A DNA stretch of 10,191 nucleotides. Origin: Deferribacteraceae bacterium. GTDB taxonomy: Bacteria; Chrysiogenota; Deferribacteres; Deferribacterales; JAISNW01. The position numbers and the translations under genes were made by a program. Where the stretch lies: positions 1 through 10,191 of the forward strand of contig JAISNW010000152.1 of assembly GCA_031276055.1 (NCBI GenBank). The letters run 5' to 3'. Shown here piece by piece: positions 1 to 8,720 of this stretch. Within the stretch, counting starts at the first letter, position 1. Each line of letters begins with the position of its first letter. The notes beneath the pieces were generated by a model, which made no database searches, was not told where the DNA came from, and saw nothing but the letters and a program-made list of their open reading frames with translations.

Positions 1-3000
1 AGATATTTATCACCTCCGGTAGATATGAATACCATAACAAAGGCGTTGACATCCTCCTTGATGTGCTAGGTTCTATAAAATCTGCTCTAAGCCAATCAAA
101 CACCACCATCCTTATGTTATTAACTGTAATGGGCGGGCATAACGGCGTAAACCATGACGCCATTTCGGGGGATCCTAATAAAAGATCAGATCAGGGCGAA
201 AACTGGATTTCAAGCCACTATATCTATAACCAACCGCAAGACGCCATCTTAAACGCATGCCGTAAACTCGGTTTAAATAACGCTGAAGATACAAAGGTTA
301 AGGTGATCTTTCTCCCCGCTCTTTTAGACGGCAATGACGGCTTTCTCAATATGACGTATTACGAGATTCTCACCGCCTGCGACCTTGGGGTGTTCCCATC
401 TTGGTATGAACCTTGGGGGTATACCCCGCAGGAAGCGATCGCACACGCCGTTCCCACCATTACCACAGATCTATCGGGCTTTGGAATATGGGTTCGCGAA
501 GTTGATGCAAAAAAGAGCGGGGTATCTATCCTATCAAGGCGGAATACACAATATGAGAAGACAAAGGAAGAGTTAAAGAATATCTTGCTCGAATATGCAA
601 ATATCTCTCCTGAAGAGCTTGAAGATAGACGGCGGGTTGTGCGCGCTTTAGCGAGCGAATGTTCTTGGGAGCACTTCTTCCCATATTATTTGCAAGCTTA
701 TGTTCTTGCTGCCTCGAAAGCTGAAGAGCGCGTCGCCTTTGAAGCTGAATCTACCTCCGATAGCGGAGCGATCCGTCTAACAGGCGCTGTAAATACAGAC
801 ACCCCAACCCTTAGGCTTTTCACAGCGGTTGCTCCACTCCCATCTGCAATATCAAGGATTAGGGAGCTTGCCTATAACTTCTGGTGGGCATGGAATCCCC
901 TCTGCACAGAACTTTTTTCAGACCTAAACCCGCAAGTTTGGGAATCTAGCGAGCACAACCCCGTTGCTGCTATGAAATCCGCAAGCACGCAAAGGCTTCG
1001 CTCCTTAGAAGAAGATGTAGTATTCTTGCGCCTATATAACAGCGTCCTTGACGGGTTTGATAAATATATGAAGACGCCGCTTAAAACCTTCGGCAAGATC
1101 ACGCCTGAACGCCCTATTGCTTACTTCTCCACTGAATATGGGTTGAATGAGTGCTTACAGATATACTCCGGCGGTCTAGGGGTGCTTTCAGGGGATCACC
1201 TGAAATCTGCCAGCGACCTATGTGTTCCCCTTGTCGGCGTAGGATTGCTATATAAAAACGGTTATTTTCATCAACAGATCGATAAAGATGGGCGGCAGGT
1301 TGCAGTATACCCTGAGAATGATTTTGACAACCTCCCCGTTACTATAATTAAAGACGACGAGGGCGAGCCGCTGCGTGTGGATGTGAAACTACCGGGGAGA
1401 ACTCTATTTGCTCAGATATGGCTAGTAAATGTGGGGCGGATCTCCCTCTACCTTATGGATACAGATATTCCTGAGAATACCCCTGACGACCGCCGCATAA
1501 CAGCGCGTCTATATGAAGCTGATAGAGATATGCGCATCCGTCAAGAGATTCTCTTAGGGATCGGAGGGGTGCGTATGCTGAACATATTGAAGATCACCCC
1601 TGCCTGCTACCATATGAACGAGGGGCACTCCGCATTCCTCATTATTGAGCGGATACGCCATTTAGTGCAAGAGAAAGGGTTGACATTTCAAGAGGCGGGC
1701 GAGGTTGTTAAAGGTTCAAACCTCTTTACGACGCATACCCCTATAGATGCAGGCAATGAAGTTTTCAGCGTTGAGCGGATGCACGATTACTTCACCCCCT
1801 ATGCCCACAATATGGGGATATCTTGGGGTGATTTTGTAAGTATGGGGCAGTTTGCGGGCACAGAGCGGAGCAATATCTTTGAGATGACGGTCCTTGCCCT
1901 AAAATACTCGTATAAAGCAAATGGTGTGAGCGAGCTTCACGGTTATGTAGCTAGGAATATGTGGAAGAATGGGTGGAAAAAGATTCCCACAGTTGAAGTG
2001 CCTATAGGCTTTGTCACCAATGGGGTTCATATGCCATCGTATGTGGGCTATTCTATGCAGATGCTGCTGCAGAGGGAGCTTAGCGAAAGCTGGATATATG
2101 AAGGTCCTGAGTCTCCTATATGGGAGCGGATCGACCATATTCCCGACAGCCAGATTTGGAGCTCAAAGCAGCTGCAGAAGTCGGCGTTGATCTCTCGGAT
2201 ACGCGAGAGCCTCCCTGCACTCTTCAAGAAACTTTCAGTCCCCTATGATCTGCAAAAGCAGGCTTTGGCGCACCTTAACCCCAACTCCCTTATTATAGGC
2301 TTTGCAAGACGTTTTGCTCCATATAAGAGGGCAAACCTTTTATTTGCAGATATAGAGCGTTTCAGCAATATTGTAAACGATGAAAACCACCCCGTTATCT
2401 TTGTTTTTGCAGGAAAAGCGCACCCAGCGGATACTCAAGGGGCGGATATTATGCAGAGCGTAATCAACTATATGAGAGATCCTCGTTTTATTGGGAAGGT
2501 TTTCTTCATAGAAGATTATGATCTTGAAGTGTCGCGCTGCCTTGTGCAAGGGTGCGATGTTTGGCTTAACACCCCGCGTAGACCCTATGAAGCCTCCGGA
2601 ACGAGCGGACAGAAAGTGCCGGTAAACGGAGGGTTGAATCTGAGCATCTCTGACGGGTGGTGGTGCGAAGGGTATAACGGAAAGAACGGGTGGACTATAG
2701 GACCTGTGGCGAGAAATGAGATACTCCTTGATCAGAACGATTACAACGATGCATCTTCGCTCTACACGCTCTTAGAAGATTCTGTCATCCCCGCTTTTTA
2801 TGGGCGCTCCTCTGACAACCTCCCGCATAACTGGATTGAACTGATGAAGAACTCCATGAAAACTCTTGTCGGCATGTATGGCTCTAACCGCATGGTGAAT
2901 GATTATGTTCACGACTACTATATGCCTGCAGCAAGACGTTATCTTGATCTTGCGGCTGAAGACAACTCCCTTGCTAAACACATTTCGGCATGGAAAGCCT

Positions 3001-3356
3001 CTGCAGCAGGGAGATTCAGCACTGTAAAGATCAACGAGATCACGATAGACGGGCTTGAAAACAACCAGATGAAGATTAACGAGCCTATCAGCATTAAGGT
3101 GTATCTAACCGCAGGAGAGATGATGCCTGAGGAGCTGCTTGTGCAGTTTGTGGTAGGTTCAGGTTCTGGCAGCGAATACACATCAAAGCCTGATATAGTT
3201 GAGATGAAACGGGCGGGAGTAAACCGCAACACCCTTATATATAAAGCCAAATATATGGTATCTAGGGAAGGCAAACAGCTTTACGGCGTGCGGGTATTTC
3301 CGGTGATGAAAGGGCTTGCTTCCCCGCTAGACACGCAGCTTGTGCTCTGGGGTTAG
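1..3356 (+). CDS. Fused glycogen synthase (GT3) / alpha-glucan phosphorylase (GT35), 5' partial
   Basis: The reading frame is open from base 3, so the start lies upstream; the ATG at 63 is internal. The first codons read SGRYEYHNKGVD, a typical GT3 (eukaryotic-type glycogen synthase) motif. Counting residues from base 63, the GT3 C-terminal half runs to about 225 and carries PSWYEPWGYTPQEA (112-125) and SGFG (138-141). After a linker, a short-type alpha-glucan phosphorylase begins near 260 with the DUF3417-like stretch RELAYNFWWAWNP. It continues with HMNEGHSAF (517-525), FARRFAPYKRA (747-757) and EASGTSGQKVPVNGG, whose lysine (851, codon 2613-2615) is the expected PLP-binding residue. A beta-rich tail of about 110 residues ends the protein, as in short-form phosphorylases. 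Known chemistry: GT3 extends alpha-1,4-glucan from a nucleotide sugar, and GT35 releases glucose-1-phosphate. Both halves keep their signature motifs, so a cytoplasmic bifunctional glycogen enzyme is inferred. No frameshift separates the two domains. Confidence 0.93.
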   Translation, partial: IFITSGRYEYHNKGVDILLDVLGSIKSALSQSNTTILMLLTVMGGHNGVNHDAISGDPNKRSDQGENWISSHYIYNQPQDAILNACRKLGLNNAEDTKVKVIFLPALLDGNDGFLNMTYYEILTACDLGVFPSWYEPWGYTPQEAIAHAVPTITTDLSGFGIWVREVDAKKSGVSILSRRNTQYEKTKEELKNILLEYANISPEELEDRRRVVRALASECSWEHFFPYYLQAYVLAASKAEERVAFEAESTSDSGAIRLTGAVNTDTPTLRLFTAVAPLPSAISRIRELAYNFWWAWNPLCTELFSDLNPQVWESSEHNPVAAMKSASTQRLRSLEEDVVFLRLYNSVLDGFDKYMKTPLKTFGKITPERPIAYFSTEYGLNECLQIYSGGLGVLSGDHLKSASDLCVPLVGVGLLYKNGYFHQQIDKDGRQVAVYPENDFDNLPVTIIKDDEGEPLRVDVKLPGRTLFAQIWLVNVGRISLYLMDTDIPENTPDDRRITARLYEADRDMRIRQEILLGIGGVRMLNILKITPACYHMNEGHSAFLIIERIRHLVQEKGLTFQEAGEVVKGSNLFTTHTPIDAGNEVFSVERMHDYFTPYAHNMGISWGDFVSMGQFAGTERSNIFEMTVLALKYSYKANGVSELHGYVARNMWKNGWKKIPTVEVPIGFVTNGVHMPSYVGYSMQMLLQRELSESWIYEGPESPIWERIDHIPDSQIWSSKQLQKSALISRIRESLPALFKKLSVPYDLQKQALAHLNPNSLIIGFARRFAPYKRANLLFADIERFSNIVNDENHPVIFVFAGKAHPADTQGADIMQSVINYMRDPRFIGKVFFIEDYDLEVSRCLVQGCDVWLNTPRRPYEASGTSGQKVPVNGGLNLSISDGWWCEGYNGKNGWTIGPVARNEILLDQNDYNDASSLYTLLEDSVIPAFYGRSSDNLPHNWIELMKNSMKTLVGMYGSNRMVNDYVHDYYMPAARRYLDLAAEDNSLAKHISAWKASAAGRFSTVKINEITIDGLENNQMKINEPISIKVYLTAGEMMPEELLVQFVVGSGSGSEYTSKPDIVEMKRAGVNRNTLIYKAKYMVSREGKQLYGVRVFPVMKGLASPLDTQLVLWG

Positions 3357-3425: not shown

Positions 3426-5588
3426 TTATACGGCAAATGAGAGGATTATGCTGAATTCACCCTTTTCTTCTCTAGTTTGCCACATCTCACCTAAAATCTC
3501 TCTGATAAAGAGGCGGGAGTATAGAAATACCGCATCGTTTTCAAATACATCATCACTAAAAAGTTGTCCGTCTTGCTTAAAGTTTGGCTTAAAGGTGAAT
3601 AGAATCTGGTAATCTAAACTGTCTGCTGTAATAGTAAGGCGAAATTCTCCCCAGAGCTCGGCTATCCGCCGCATAAGTTTTGTAAATAAAGCCTCGATCT
3701 CTTCTACATAAGCCGTCAACTGAACTAGCTTTGAAAGCTCATCTTCACAGATTATGGCGGGAAACTTTTCCCGTTCGATAATGCTGGAGAGCATCTTGCT
3801 GGGAGAAAATAACTTTGAGCCTTCATTAAAGCTAAAGAGCCGTTCAAAACTATATAAATTTGCAATCTGGCTAAGCGCTTTTAGAACTATAGCAGAGCTA
3901 TTGCTGTCTATATTAGAACTTTGTATATAAGAAGTTATTAGCTTGCAGCGCATATCTATATAACTGCATAAATAGTTATAAATACTCCCTATCCCGCTTG
4001 TTCGTAGGGAGCGGAAACGCTCACCCTTTTTGCGTTCTATCGCAGAGCGGCGGAAAAACGGATAATTCTTCCCATCTATTGAACTTTCCGACCTCCCTGC
4101 CTGCTTAACTTTTTCTAGTTTATTCAGCATCTCGTCGTATTTCGCCTCTTTTTCAGCGACAAGCTCATATATCCCTAAAACTCCGATGATCTCCCCGTTT
4201 ATATTAAGGTTGGGTATCTTACTAATCCTATACATCTTTTCCACCTGGCCGCCTATGTTGAAACGGCTCACTCCCGTATAATACTTCATCTTCCCTGTCA
4301 AAATGTCCATATCTTGTCTTTGCATCTCTTCGGCTGTCTGGGGTGGAAATAGGGCGGAATAGCCGCGTCCTAATATCTGTCTAGAAGTTAAGCCAAGCAT
4401 TATCTGTGCGGATATATTCGCCCTCAATACCGCCCCCTCTCTATCTGTCAAGAGAAAAGCCGAAGGGAAACTGTTTAAGATAAAAGATGTTTCGGTTATC
4501 TCTTTCAGATTGGCAAAATATTCAACCGCATAGCGGTTTACATCAGAAAAAGAGGCAAGGGCGGCTTGAGAAGAGATGCTCTTAATAAAGAGGATTACCC
4601 AGATTCTGCTCTCTGAAATCTTTAAGATTACCTGCTGGGAGTGGACGCAATCAGAGCTATTAAGCTCTTTAACAACAGATTCTCGGTATTCTTCTGCGAT
4701 AAATTCAAAAAAAGAGTTTTTCCCGCCCGCTTTCCAGTTGGTTAAGCCGAGCAATAACTCGCCGCGCGGGTTTATATAGGTAATATCGCCGTCGGTTGGA
4801 TTAATGAGCGCAAGCCCTGAATATGCGTTATTAAAGATAAGTTTATATACATCTCTGCTATAGAGGAGATATTGAAGTTTTCTTAGCGCTATATATAAAA
4901 ATAGCGAAACCAGCAGCGCTAATAACAGCTTGCTTATTATAGTTATTTTAAGGGGTGTAAATTCTTGTTCTTCTAATTTGGAATATATATCAAGAGAGCC
5001 GCCTTCAAAGTTTATGGTTAAAATATTCCTAGGCTTGTTCAATGCCTTAGGAGAACCGCCGAGGATATAGCCATTTTCAGCATCTCTTACAGCAATAGCG
5101 GCTTTCCCTTGAAAATAGGTGAAATAGGCGTCTTTGGAGAGAAAGTCAGGTTCAAGCAGGAGTTGAAGGCGGCGGGCATCGCTAAGCGTAAGCTCATATA
5201 TGTAGGAGCGTCCAGTTTTACCTGTGCTTGCAGGGTTAAGATAAAAGTTAAATCTGCCTATATCCTCAGGCAGGGCAACTGCATCCTCTAAGTTAAGAGC
5301 AGATATATCCTCATTACCGAGGGCGGCAATGGTTAAAAGGTTATGAATCTCTTCCGCCTGCATATTGCGGCTTTCTATCTGCCCGCCTATATCCCTTAGA
5401 CAGAGGGCGAAACTGTAAAAGAGTCGGTTTATTCTATCTTTGAGAAGCTCAACTCTATGCTCATTTTCTATTACAGCACGGTTTTGCCCTTCTCTAAATG
5501 CCGCAGTTTCTCGAATAAGGACGGCATATGCTGTAAGTAGAGCAAATGTAATAGCTATCCCTGCAGCAAAGAGTCTAGAAAAGCTCAT
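3426..5588 (-). CDS. Membrane sensor with two PAS domains and a degenerate histidine-kinase-like C-terminus
   Basis: The start is taken as the ATG at 5588; a GTG one codon upstream (5591) abuts the pepA stop and is also possible. The product is 720 aa. Residues counted from the GTG: TM1 about 7-27; extracytoplasmic sensory region 28-214 with an N-terminal helix as in Cache-type sensors (exact family not recognised); TM2 about 215-236; PAS-like region 245-340; a clearer PAS domain 368-478 (LTDREGAVLRANISAQIMLGLT); short coiled coil 478-498. The last 190 residues resemble a kinase core in outline. A helical pair lies at 530-590, and the end FLYSRLFIREILGEMW...EKGEFSIILSF aligns with the usual final part of a HATPase_c domain. 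However, no H-box histidine, N-box asparagine, or G1/G2 glycine motif is visible. It is therefore probably a pseudokinase or partner-binding signalling protein, not an active kinase. No response regulator is adjacent. It is probably co-transcribed with pepA. Confidence 0.8.
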   Translation of the reverse strand: MSFSRLFAAGIAITFALLTAYAVLIRETAAFREGQNRAVIENEHRVELLKDRINRLFYSFALCLRDIGGQIESRNMQAEEIHNLLTIAALGNEDISALNLEDAVALPEDIGRFNFYLNPASTGKTGRSYIYELTLSDARRLQLLLEPDFLSKDAYFTYFQGKAAIAVRDAENGYILGGSPKALNKPRNILTINFEGGSLDIYSKLEEQEFTPLKITIISKLLLALLVSLFLYIALRKLQYLLYSRDVYKLIFNNAYSGLALINPTDGDITYINPRGELLLGLTNWKAGGKNSFFEFIAEEYRESVVKELNSSDCVHSQQVILKISESRIWVILFIKSISSQAALASFSDVNRYAVEYFANLKEITETSFILNSFPSAFLLTDREGAVLRANISAQIMLGLTSRQILGRGYSALFPPQTAEEMQRQDMDILTGKMKYYTGVSRFNIGGQVEKMYRISKIPNLNINGEIIGVLGIYELVAEKEAKYDEMLNKLEKVKQAGRSESSIDGKNYPFFRRSAIERKKGERFRSLRTSGIGSIYNYLCSYIDMRCKLITSYIQSSNIDSNSSAIVLKALSQIANLYSFERLFSFNEGSKLFSPSKMLSSIIEREKFPAIICEDELSKLVQLTAYVEEIEALFTKLMRRIAELWGEFRLTITADSLDYQILFTFKPNFKQDGQLFSDDVFENDAVFLYSRLFIREILGEMWQTREEKGEFSIILSFAV

Positions 5589-5591
5589 CAC

Positions 5592-7079
5592 TTAAAAAGA
5601 ATAGTATTCCTTAATAAAGCGGTAGATAAGGCGCACGCCGAAACCGGAGGCGTCTCTGCCGAAAACTGGATGCTCATATTCCAAAAAAGCGGGGCCTGCA
5701 ATATCTATATGAATCCAAGGATAGTTGTCTACAAACTCTTTTAGGAAGAGAGCAGCAACTATAGCCCCTCCGTATTTTGGTCCGCCGGCCATATTTTGCA
5801 GATCGGCGCTCTTGCTTGCCAACCTCTCGGAATATCTCTCATATAGAGGCAGTTCCCAAACATCTTCCCCCACTTGCAAGGAAACATCCGAGAGGTGCTT
5901 GCTTAAAAATTTGCGGTTTGTGAAAACTCCCGCTATATTATCGCCCAACGCGACGGCGCATGCCCCCGTAAGGGTTGCAGCATCTATTATTAAGAGGGGT
6001 TCAGTTTTTGTGGCGAGGTATAGAGCATCCGCTAAGATAAGCCGCCCCTCTGCATCAGTATTTAACACCTCTACCTTCTTTCCTGACAGCGATAGATATA
6101 TATCGCCCGGCCTCATAGCGCCGCCTCCTATAATATTTTCCGCAAGAGGGATATACGCATGGACATTTACCTTGAGTTCAGAGGCTGCTATAAGGTTCAC
6201 CACAGCAAACACCGTTGCTGCGCCCCCCATATCCGCCTTCATGCACTCCATCCCTTGAGATGTTTTTAGATTGCTGCCTCCGGAATCAAAGGTTATCCCC
6301 TTGCCTACTAGAGCGATGTTCTCAGTTTTATCAGGCGCACCTTTATATACTAGCTTTATAAAACGAGGCGGGTTGCTGCTCCCCTTTCCAACGGCGTCTA
6401 TAAGCAATAGACCGTTGCTCTTAATAGCTGTTTCATCTAACACCTCAACCTTTACGCTTTTATATAGATGTTCAGCTGCATACTGCTCAAAGCCGATAGG
6501 CGTCATTACATTTGGTGGGAAGTTTATTAAATCTCTAGCGAGATTCACATATGTAAAGGTTAAGCTCCATTCAGATGCACTCTGATCAACATAGCGTTTC
6601 AAACGGGTTGAGGCGGTTATAATCTCCGCTTCAGCCAGCTCTAAAGGAGGTTCGCTCTTAAACTCCTTAAAAGAGTAATTGGCGAATAACACCCCTTCAA
6701 TAAAAGCTGTTGTATAGGAAAAATCTTTCCCTTCATTATACACATCCTCAAAGGCTATAATGGAGAAGGAGTATAGTTTATTATTTAGAAGAGTCTTTGC
6801 AACTTTTGCCCCTAACGCTCTATATATAAATTGGTCTTTCGGCTCTTTTGGAACTGACAGCAAAAAAACCTTTTTAAGTTTCAGCTCTAATGGGACATAA
6901 AATGAGTTTATCTGTCCATCTTCAAAATCAAAATAATCGGACTGGATAATAGTTTGCAGCTCATCGTCTATGGTTTTGCCGGTAATATCTCTTAAGACCG
7001 GCATATTCTTATACACAGGGATGATTATCGCCTCTTTGCGCGAATTGACCGCCATCTTGTTACGGCAGGAAATTTTCAT
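5592..7079 (-). CDS. pepA: Leucyl aminopeptidase (cytosol aminopeptidase, peptidase family M17)
   Basis: This enzyme removes N-terminal residues from peptides using two metal ions; M17 enzymes usually form cytoplasmic hexamers. With the ATG at 7079 as residue 1 the product is 495 aa, normal for the family. The M17 signature NTDAEGRL is present. The expected metal ligands are K260, D265, D283, D342 and E344, and the catalytic residues K272 and R346. Each sits exactly 10 positions before its E. coli PepA counterpart, so the core is complete. The N-terminal macro-like domain is about residues 1-200, more diverged. Start choice: a GTG at 7199 keeps the frame open for 40 more residues, but it has no ribosome site and would add a hydrophobic segment foreign to the family, whereas the ATG at 7079 has GGAGG five bases upstream. 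The stop is immediately followed by the sensor gene, suggesting translational coupling. Some PepA proteins also bind DNA; nothing here tests that. Confidence 0.95.
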   Translation of the reverse strand: MKISCRNKMAVNSRKEAIIIPVYKNMPVLRDITGKTIDDELQTIIQSDYFDFEDGQINSFYVPLELKLKKVFLLSVPKEPKDQFIYRALGAKVAKTLLNNKLYSFSIIAFEDVYNEGKDFSYTTAFIEGVLFANYSFKEFKSEPPLELAEAEIITASTRLKRYVDQSASEWSLTFTYVNLARDLINFPPNVMTPIGFEQYAAEHLYKSVKVEVLDETAIKSNGLLLIDAVGKGSSNPPRFIKLVYKGAPDKTENIALVGKGITFDSGGSNLKTSQGMECMKADMGGAATVFAVVNLIAASELKVNVHAYIPLAENIIGGGAMRPGDIYLSLSGKKVEVLNTDAEGRLILADALYLATKTEPLLIIDAATLTGACAVALGDNIAGVFTNRKFLSKHLSDVSLQVGEDVWELPLYERYSERLASKSADLQNMAGGPKYGGAIVAALFLKEFVDNYPWIHIDIAGPAFLEYEHPVFGRDASGFGVRLIYRFIKEYYSF

Positions 7080-7084
7080 AAACG

Positions 7085-7089
7085 CCTCC
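7085..7089 (-). promoter_or_regulatory. Ribosome binding site deciding the pepA start
   Basis: On the minus strand GGAGG is followed by CGTTT and then ATG at 7079. This strong, well-spaced Shine-Dalgarno sequence favours the ATG at 7079 over the in-frame GTG at 7199, which is preceded only by AACTTTTT. Confidence 0.8.
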
Positions 7090-7097
7090 ACCCCCAG

Positions 7098-7106
7098 ATA
7101 GTAGCA
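7098..7106 (-). promoter_or_regulatory. Possible extended -10 promoter for pepA
   Basis: Minus-strand TGCTACTAT matches an extended -10 element (TGn followed by TACTAT). The best hexamer 17 bases upstream, TTTCAT, is a poor -35. Initiation here would give a short leader of about 10-12 bases that still contains the GGAGG. The sequence match alone is modest evidence. Confidence 0.35.
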
Positions 7107-7220
7107 CAGAAAGGGAAAAAATGAAAGCAGCAAGGAGAGTTGTAAAATAGCTGATATATAAGCGGCAGCCTTCCGTAAATTCCACCTTTGCCTTTGCACA
7201 AAAAGTTAGGGGCTGCTCAA

Positions 7221-7374
7221 AAAAAACCACCGTTTAAAATAGACAGGCATTTTTGTTGCACTTAGTGGAATTAAAATTGACAAAAATTGAGAAGCTAGTA
7301 TTTATAGGATTCTATTGCTTACTGTTTTTGATTAATTAAATTAAATGCCTGTCTATTTTAAACGGTGGTTTTTT
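7221..7374. repeat. 154-bp element with perfect 32-bp inverted repeats: candidate invertible promoter or MITE
   Basis: The left arm (7221-7252) starts AAAAAACCACCG and ends AGACAGGCATTT. The right arm (7343-7374) is its exact reverse complement over all 32 bases, and the match stops at both boundaries. The 90 bp between (7253-7342) is AT-rich and has no coding capacity. The element sits between divergent pepA and the porin gene and contains a rightward promoter-like -35. Two readings fit: a recombinase-invertible promoter segment, as in known phase-variable surface loci, or a miniature inverted-repeat transposable element. No clear target-site duplication is visible, which weakens the MITE reading. 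No recombinase gene is in the window, so inversion is unproven. Confidence 0.85.
7277..7306 (+). promoter_or_regulatory. Candidate sigma-70-type promoter inside the inverted repeat, facing the porin gene
   Basis: TTGACA at 7277-7282 matches the -35 consensus exactly. The -10 is weak: TATTTA (7299-7304, spacer 16) or TTTATA (7301-7306, spacer 18). Transcription would start near 7312, giving a leader of about 90 bases that contains the right repeat arm. I found no comparably good promoter in the opposite direction within the loop. Confidence 0.45.
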
Positions 7375-7384
7375 ATAGACAGGT

Positions 7385-7391
7385 AGAAGGA
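7385..7391 (+). promoter_or_regulatory. Ribosome binding site for the porin gene
   Basis: AGAAGGA lies 12 bases before the GTG at 7404. The spacing is slightly long, but this is the only purine-rich site upstream. The earlier in-frame GTG at 7365 lies inside the right inverted-repeat arm and has no such site. Confidence 0.5.
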
Positions 7392-7403
7392 ATTGGCTTA
7401 ATT

Positions 7404-8720
7404 GTGAGAGTGTTTGCCGCCATATTTATTATCCTCTTAATTCAAACAGCATATTCTTCGGAATTTTACTTTTTGGGTGAAGTTGACTGGACGTTAGGGG
7501 TGGATAATGATCTAGATTTCAATAAAAATACATCAGAATCGCCATTTTTTAATGCTTTTTTGCTTAAACTTAGGGAAGACGCCTATCTCCCTTATAATTT
7601 TGGTTTAACTGCCGAAGTTCACTTAAAGTATAATGATGGGGATGATGGCAATCCCTACAGCTCCTATAATGCGGATAATGATGAATTCAAAGTGCGCAAT
7701 GCCAGCATAAAATGGGATTGCACTGGCATTAACAGTAGAATCAGAGCGGGGATTCAGCCGATAGAACTGCCTAGCGCCACCTTTGGCAACCCCCTCTTCA
7801 GCGGTTATATAAACGCGCTGAATATCAGCACAATAAAACCAGAAAAGGTGTATTGGCAGCTCTTTATAGCGTCCCCCATCCAGAACAACGACCGTATGCC
7901 AAAGGCAAACTCTGCCGTTATAGGCGGCGGCATCCTAGATTTTATCGGTGAAAACTTTGAATTTGCGCCTTATTTTATTGCAGCATATCTAAAACATCAG
8001 GAGGATTCAACCTTTGATTGGGCAAGCGCTCCAAACAATGCACACAGCTACCTATTAGGAGGCGGCGCCGCTGCTAAATACAACTTTAATAAGAATATCT
8101 CTGCAGCGCTTGATCTCGTAATAGCGGACACCAACAATTCAGGTCCTCACCACTATGAGAACAAAGGGTATTTTTCCGCCGCCCTCCTTGAGTATGATAT
8201 TCATTCAGGATTGTTAGGCTTGTTTGGCTGGTATTCCTCTGGAAATTCCTCAAAACTTCAAAACCATAATGACTATGGGCTTTTACCAACCATGGCGGGA
8301 GAGAGCAGCTTTCACCCTACAAGGCTTGCCTTCAAAGGTGATATCTCTGAAGGGAGGGATGCTGCTGTTTCAGAGAATTCCGCAGGCACAGCAGGTATTG
8401 GAGTCCACCTAAAACAGCTGCGTTTCTTGAGCAATTTAGAGCATATATTCCGTCTGGCTTATATAACAGGGACGTCTACAGATCAAGGAGCGGGAGCGCC
8501 TGCTGCAGTAATAGTTGAAAGTTATGCAAAAAAGAGAGGCGAACCTGCTGTAATGACCGATAAGGACTATGCTCTGGAGATCGATTTTGATTCAGTGCTT
8601 GATATAACCGATTGTATAAGAGCCGCTCTTGAGATCGCATATATCTTCAGCGGCTATGCAGATAAAAGATACGACACAGATATATACAACGTTGAACTCT
8701 CCATAAGGTATATATTCTGA
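7404..8720 (+). CDS. Probable outer-membrane porin (beta-barrel protein)
   Basis: The GTG at 7404 is preferred because it gives a clean signal peptide: Arg2, hydrophobic core AAIFIILLI, and likely cleavage after A-Y-S at residue 18. The frame is open further upstream to a GTG at 7365. The 438-aa product is rich in alternating aromatic/polar strand-like segments and Asn/Asp/Gly turns. It ends ELSIRYIF, with the C-terminal Phe of the beta-barrel assembly signal recognised by the BAM complex. The segment RAGIQPIELPSATFGNPLF resembles, from memory, a conserved stretch in the outer-membrane homotrimeric porins of Desulfovibrio-type bacteria. The predicted role is passive diffusion of small solutes across the outer membrane; substrate unknown. 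It is transcribed away from pepA, and its only visible promoter candidate lies inside the 32-bp inverted repeat, suggesting possible on/off control. It converges with the ankyrin gene 14 bases downstream. Confidence 0.72.
   Translation: MRVFAAIFIILLIQTAYSSEFYFLGEVDWTLGVDNDLDFNKNTSESPFFNAFLLKLREDAYLPYNFGLTAEVHLKYNDGDDGNPYSSYNADNDEFKVRNASIKWDCTGINSRIRAGIQPIELPSATFGNPLFSGYINALNISTIKPEKVYWQLFIASPIQNNDRMPKANSAVIGGGILDFIGENFEFAPYFIAAYLKHQEDSTFDWASAPNNAHSYLLGGGAAAKYNFNKNISAALDLVIADTNNSGPHHYENKGYFSAALLEYDIHSGLLGLFGWYSSGNSSKLQNHNDYGLLPTMAGESSFHPTRLAFKGDISEGRDAAVSENSAGTAGIGVHLKQLRFLSNLEHIFRLAYITGTSTDQGAGAPAAVIVESYAKKRGEPAVMTDKDYALEIDFDSVLDITDCIRAALEIAYIFSGYADKRYDTDIYNVELSIRYIF

Follow-up and report, generated by a model that had tools for sequence, protein, structure and literature searches.

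A 154-bp unit in the DNA analysed here, a window of 10,191 nucleotides from a Deferribacteraceae bacterium, is very probably an Mpi-type invertible promoter (inverton) flipped by a serine invertase; with this one included, the genome has at least 11 such elements. In its own draft genome (G000; 1.56 Mb, 262 contigs, about 78 % complete) the window is contig C82, and we compared that genome with a second species of the same genus (G001) and another genus of the family (G002). A first-pass annotation had proposed recombinase-driven inversion of a promoter serving a surface protein, and comparative evidence strongly supports that proposal: 11 loci with paired sites, a 2-bp signature, an invertase of the Mpi family and loci assembled in opposite orientations.

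The mechanism we propose is the following. The Mpi-family serine invertase from contig C182 of the same genome would act in trans, binding two inverted 34-bp sites. It would cut at the central dinucleotide that the sites share, rotate and rejoin the ends, so that a segment of about 136 bp flips. In the assembled state the promoter would read across the right arm into the leader of the porin gene (ON); in the flipped state it would face away and leave the porin without its promoter (OFF). An active promoter in the window and inversion in living cells are both predictions from the DNA sequence.

Architecture of the element in the window

The element lies between two divergent genes, with the following features:

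3426 to 5591, minus strand: PAS-domain protein gene, immediately 3′ of pepA
5592 to 7079, minus strand: pepA, leucyl-aminopeptidase-type (M17), the divergent neighbour; most likely start ATG 7079
7213 to 7246: left recombination site, a 34-bp imperfect palindrome, CTGCTCAAAAAAAAC-CACC-GTTTAAAATAGACAG; predicted crossover dinucleotide 7229-7230 (AC)
7221 to 7252: left perfect arm, 32 bp, from the repeat search and shuffles
7231 to 7364: putative invertible segment, placed from the sites as lying between the inferred crossover dinucleotides
7277 to 7304, plus strand: putative promoter TTGACA-16-TATTTA, toward the porin, ON as assembled; resembles the C234 promoter
7332 to 7344: palindrome TTAATTAAATTAA, within the segment, with 27.5 bp between its centre and that of the right crossover; candidate accessory site
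7343 to 7374: right perfect arm, 32 bp, from the repeat search and shuffles
7349 to 7382: right recombination site, CTGTCTATTTTAAAC-GGTG-GTTTTTTATAGACAG; predicted crossover dinucleotide 7365-7366 (GT, that is AC inverted)
7385 to 7390, plus strand: RBS-like AGAAGG, recognised by its sequence, preceding GTG 7404 and beyond the segment
7404 to 8720, plus strand: outer-membrane beta-barrel, the target gene; most likely start GTG 7404

The arms are 32 nt long, 100 % complementary and 90 nt apart. No longer perfect inverted repeat exists anywhere in the window when the arms may be up to 300 bp apart, and 100 dinucleotide-preserving shuffles reached at most 13 bp. The two exact arms reported in the first-pass annotation are confirmed. 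Each arm belongs to one of two larger 34-bp imperfect palindromic sites (7213-7246 and 7349-7382), a pair identical across the whole inner half and spacer. Inversion of the segment in silico restores both arms exactly. A terminator scan of positions 7000-7500 returned 0 terminator-like sites.

The porin-directed TTGACA noted earlier is indeed present on the plus strand (7277-7282), followed 16 nt later by TATTTA, a poor −10 box, but a sigma-70 consensus scan of the window does not call the pair as a promoter. A crude promoter scorer ranked a different hexamer pair first, above TTGACA/TATTTA; by the same scorer many of the related segments have good −35/−10 pairs. Given these two outcomes, the promoter call rests on conservation: the related segment on contig C234 of the same genome retains TTGACT-17-TATTTATAG. 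The listed start of the outer-membrane protein reading frame, 7365, falls within the right arm. The porin itself is predicted by structural modelling to be an 18-strand barrel of AlgE/OprD-like fold.

A two-way switch, in which the flipped promoter would serve pepA and the sensor gene behind it, had also been envisaged. Inverted in silico, the promoter sits on the minus strand, where 239 nt separate its −35 box from the pepA ATG further downstream. In G001, the 500 bases upstream of the pepA start (contig C112) hold no element and C112 has no listed site match; we therefore dropped the link between element and pepA, and pepA as a possible second target is unsupported. A tblastn search for the porin on G001 contig C117, which begins in an element, found no porin.

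The closest named relative in a pepA protein search is Deferribacteraceae bacterium UBA1873 (53 % identity), and the lineage most likely belongs to Deferribacterota. In UBA1873 (L018), pepA is the only match among the window's long reading frames, together with an overlapping frame on the opposite strand. Elsewhere in the window (3-3356), a single reading frame truncated by the contig start joins a glycogen-synthase-like domain, DUF3417 and a carbohydrate phosphorylase.

Paired sites, crossover signature and orientation

Searching the draft genome with the arm yielded a second copy on contig C234 and weaker copies elsewhere; C82 and C234 are 80 % identical across 169 bp. These are the further arm copies that the first-pass annotation had proposed to look for. 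We defined the site by a scan that used the half-sites only and left the centre unconstrained. It consists of two 15-bp half-sites flanking 4 bp, together a 34-bp imperfect palindrome, and an alignment of 29 sites has seven invariant columns: an initial TG, the AA and TT to either side of the centre, and a C close to the end.

A site model built from sequence only recovered at least 11 whole pairs in G000 and at least 12 in G001, with the two sites of a pair 136-154 bp apart; these are lower bounds, as 150 of 1014 first-look candidates were scored in G000 and 150 of 1309 in G001. Site matches numbered 47 in G000 and 69 in G001, counts in which a palindromic site can appear on both strands, and the analysis used only the pairs with both sites whole (11 + 12). 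Matches lacking a partner lie on G000 contigs C97, C178 and C171 (E 0.27-0.34); those lacking a whole partner in G001 lie on C62, C6, C75, C2, C47, C99 (at 3980), C119, C76, C230, C117, C48 and C31. Several unpaired matches are at contig ends. Among 17 hand-listed elements in G001, five are within 150 bp of a contig end, where 3.8 % would be expected, compared with none of the 11 in G000; such assembly breaks can arise from inversion mixtures or from plain repeats.

When 47 genomes of the class were scanned with the site model, matches at E ≤ 0.001 occurred in G000 and G001 only. Absence elsewhere in the class is weak evidence: G000 and G001 themselves supplied the model, scoring covered 143 of up to 3970 candidates per genome and the filters were stricter. 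Plasmid records gave a single weak 37-bp match, which we disregarded.

In each of the 23 pairs from G000 and G001, the central dinucleotide of one site recurs, inverted, in the other; the pairs are not fully independent, some loci being paralogous, so that the effective number is below 23. Site positions for this test were set by half-site score alone; model R1, the source of some partners, includes the centre. The dinucleotide is AC in four pairs, TC in one, TT or AA in 13 and TA in five. Across 100,000 shuffles of partners, agreement averaged 8.1 pairs and never exceeded 17, against the 23 observed. Identity falls off as the comparison widens, to 19 of 23 pairs over 4 bp and 12 of 23 over both 6 bp and 8 bp. 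The matching centre is not just a product of arm copying, because the inner half-sites of seven pairs match at no more than 4-8 of their 15 positions. Serine recombinases need a 2-bp overlap, tyrosine recombinases an identical stretch of 6-8 bp. The shared centre thus agrees with a 2-bp crossover by a serine recombinase and not with a tyrosine recombinase.

Self-complementary TA centres are found at L130 (C117) and L128 (C44), and in G001 at L136, L138 and L139 (C129a, C165 and C195). A centre of this kind does not fix the direction of recombination under serine-recombinase rules, and deletion as well as inversion would be possible at these loci.

Nine of the 11 G000 loci adjoin envelope genes by our assignment (porin, lipoproteins, glycosyltransferases). 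Five of the 12 pairs in G001 lie beside clear envelope genes and three more beside exported (Tat) proteins, the remaining loci including a sigma factor and a GntR-domain protein. Orientation can be compared directly at G001 contigs C47 and C176, which have the same gene start: the gene-side flank is 94.8 % identical over 155 bp and ends in the site, and beyond it the two segments align on opposite strands (86 %, 180 bp), the switch falling inside the site. The far site of C47 is truncated by the contig end. A third locus with a similar gene start, on C173, has the orientation of C47 relative to the gene (90 %, 247 bp). At six other G000 loci (C123, C114, C118, C250, C54 and C124) the assembled promoter points away from the nearest envelope gene, as expected if loci are in different states.

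Two further G001 loci deserve mention. On C165 (L138), two epimerase genes diverge from one element, whose sites lie 65 and 27 bp from their listed starts, and this locus is a better candidate than the window for a true two-way switch. On C113 (L150), the gene beside the element has its lipoprotein-like start and its body in different reading frames, through an assembly error or a broken gene.

The invertase and alternative explanations

PF00239 has one match in G000 (C182) and two in G001 (C97 and C227). The C182 and C97 proteins (P0001 and P0002) are 78-79 % identical, and both pass the cut-off of 272 for NF009949, the "master DNA invertase Mpi family serine-type recombinase", at 306.2 and 308 bits, respectively; C227 scores 202 bits, under the cut-off. 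R7, S9 and SRLGR are conserved in seven of seven aligned proteins, and the best PDB sequence matches, 4m6f and 3uj3, are both DNA-invertase entries. Seven of the 47 class genomes have some match to the invertase. The NF009949 cut-off is passed by two of them, the same two that bear the sites; the other five have Mpi-like or remoter serine-recombinase matches below it (best 223, 216 and 211 bits) and no sites of this model. G002 carries four sub-cut-off matches to the Mpi family model, on C76, C122, C26 and C107, three near full length and one a fragment. It has no sites matching model R1, and its Mpi-like proteins may use different sites. Neither invertase contig, C182 or C97 of G001, has a listed site match; the target loci are dispersed, away from the invertase. 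No viral contigs encoding the invertase were found.

The B. fragilis Mpi repeat is given as ARACGTTCGTN in the accessible part of PMC8375218. At the site centres described here it is matched at 7 or more of 10 positions in 45 of 46 sites, against a background of 1.1 %; the match lies partly in positions rewarded by the site scorer, whose weights come from these sites and not from Bacteroides. The right site of the window, AAACGGTGGT, matches it at 8 of 10 by reading. A related form of the consensus, ARACGTWCGT, returned nothing in a literature search. We infer that the C182 invertase is the enzyme acting on the sites.

Recombinase genes had been named in the first-pass annotation as something to search for, and besides the Mpi-family serine recombinase at C182 the draft genome has seven PF00589 matches, five above the cut-off, a count to be read with its 78 % completeness, at which a further recombinase may be missing. 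One of these tyrosine recombinases, of Xer or integrase type, could instead flip the same inverton, as in fimS. The sites, 34 bp long with two half-sites about a spacer, also fit a loxP-like layout. We nevertheless consider this improbable: identity over 6 bp is found in only 12 of 23 pairs versus 23 of 23 for the central 2 bp, the sites resemble Mpi sites, and the five tyrosine recombinases scanned scored best against Xer or general integrase models, none exceeding a tyrosine-invertase cut-off. The 6-bp comparison speaks for the site family and not for the window alone, whose own pair is identical over the inner half and spacer.

The alternative offered at first pass was a dispersed, non-inverting repeat of MITE type in which a promoter is present by chance, with dispersed copies as its test. 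Eleven dispersed related copies are indeed found in one genome, C82 and C234 showing the likeness given above, but the MITE reading is disfavoured and we regard it as very improbable. The two ends of a copy match at the central dinucleotide whereas copies differ in it; those ends are internally palindromic sites resembling Mpi sites; segment size varies within a narrow range; paralogous loci occur in inverted orientations, with the switch within the site; and no direct repeats around C82 and C234 were seen by eye. A fixed regulatory RNA or operator, acting as a long hairpin in the porin leader or as a binding place for a dimeric regulator, has an equally slight chance: the right site, a palindrome in its own right, does fall in what is presumably the 5′ leader, but this would leave unexplained the locus-specific agreement in the central 2 bp between sites separated by 136-154 bp, the loop is too long for a terminator, with none found in 7000-7500, and an Rfam scan of seven related loci outside the window gave two chance-level matches far under gathering scores.

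Accessory features and known systems

Beyond the invertible promoter itself, two features recur across the loci. The first is a palindrome, TTAATNNNATTAA, whose centre lies 27.5 bp away from that of the crossover; it is matched at 7 or more of 10 positions in 17 of 46 outer flanks against a background of 0.8 %, for a consensus picked after viewing the flanks. It is present in 11 of 19 flanks on the gene-distal side, 3 of 19 on the gene-proximal side and 3 of 8 unassigned ones, gene side being assigned by hand for 19 of the 23 loci. The window and C234 match it at 10 of 10 positions, but there it lies inward of the right site. Its fixed phase suggests a candidate site for an accessory protein.

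The second is an intrinsic terminator 3′ of the promoter on the same strand, found in 7 of 23 segments; on the opposite strand it occurs in 0 of 23, and in a background set of windows in 13 of 2388. For this test we assigned promoter direction manually, leaving C117 and G001 C195 without one and overriding the promoter scorer at G001 C14. The segments concerned are L131, L132, L133, L135 and L129 in G000 (C118, C250, C123, C114 and C54) and L145 and L150 in G001 (C32 and C113), loci with similar leader starts, for example GTGTTTCGGCGG. C206 and C124 showed terminator-like hairpins in a first scan that fail a stricter rule. Because promoter and terminator move together, orientation alone would be insufficient for full expression at these loci. 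The internal terminators fit awkwardly with a plain ON/OFF switch there and suggest that attenuation or read-through adds a layer of control to orientation. We considered antitermination of the UpxY/RfaH kind by an additional NusG-like protein and rejected it, as each genome has only one NusG match.

A broader scheme, which we offer tentatively and with some doubt, is a phase-variation network spanning the genome in Deferribacterota, under the control of a single Mpi-type invertase. Recombination would be confined within a locus or class by the central dinucleotide (AC, TC, TT, TA) as an address, the palindrome at 27.5 bp would take part in synapsis or its control, and the terminators inside some segments would make expression depend on both orientation and read-through.

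The Hin, Gin and Cin invertases (Din family) invert a single segment or a few linked ones and depend on a Fis enhancer. The system described here likewise has a serine recombinase, a dyad site and a 2-bp crossover; it differs in that the enzyme is on another contig, the loci are many and no enhancer was identified. The RecV protein of C. difficile is a tyrosine recombinase. In the flagellar switch of that species, the OFF leader undergoes Rho termination, according to the accessible part of PMC7446863. That switch resembles ours, on the same partial source, in joining phase variation with termination of leader transcription, and differs from it, with RecV and Rho in place of intrinsic terminators inside the segments of some loci, the window's excepted.

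Mpi regulons are described for Bacteroides in the accessible parts of PMC4747536 and PMC8375218. The B. fragilis regulon comprises 13 inverted regions, seven of them polysaccharide promoters (PMC4747536, accessible part). As far as those texts go, our system shares with it a serine invertase of the same NCBI family, many loci, short invertible promoters, surface targets and a similar repeat core; unlike it, ours belongs to Deferribacterota, and its targets include a porin, lipoproteins, and glycosyltransferase-like and sulfatase-domain proteins. Capsule promoters of Bacteroides intestinalis have segments of 183-186 bp and the repeat GTTCGTTTAA (PMC8375218, accessible part). In register, 41 of the 46 sites here agree with this repeat at 7-9 of 10 positions, and both systems have small invertible promoters. 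In that same portion of the source, the loci are capsule loci, the segments are longer and both orientations appear in reads, whereas ours are known from assembled sequence alone. Several central dinucleotides per genome, a fixed-phase palindrome at many sites and terminators in 7 of 23 segments are features that may set the present system apart from Bacteroides; the palindrome and internal terminators may be variant features of the Mpi system.

A literature search for invertons or DNA inversion in Deferribacter, Mucispirillum and Deferribacterota listed no such system among its matches, which is weak evidence of absence as most subscription journals lie outside its coverage. The Mpi-type invertible promoter reported here is of a kind already known, in a phylum for which we found no description of one. 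If our reading is true, Deferribacterota have a full Mpi regulon of an invertase and at least 11 switches, and global surface phase variation under one invertase would not be specific to Bacteroides. Because different central dinucleotides coexist within one genome, these loci would also provide an unusually clean natural data set on how serine invertases discriminate between sites.
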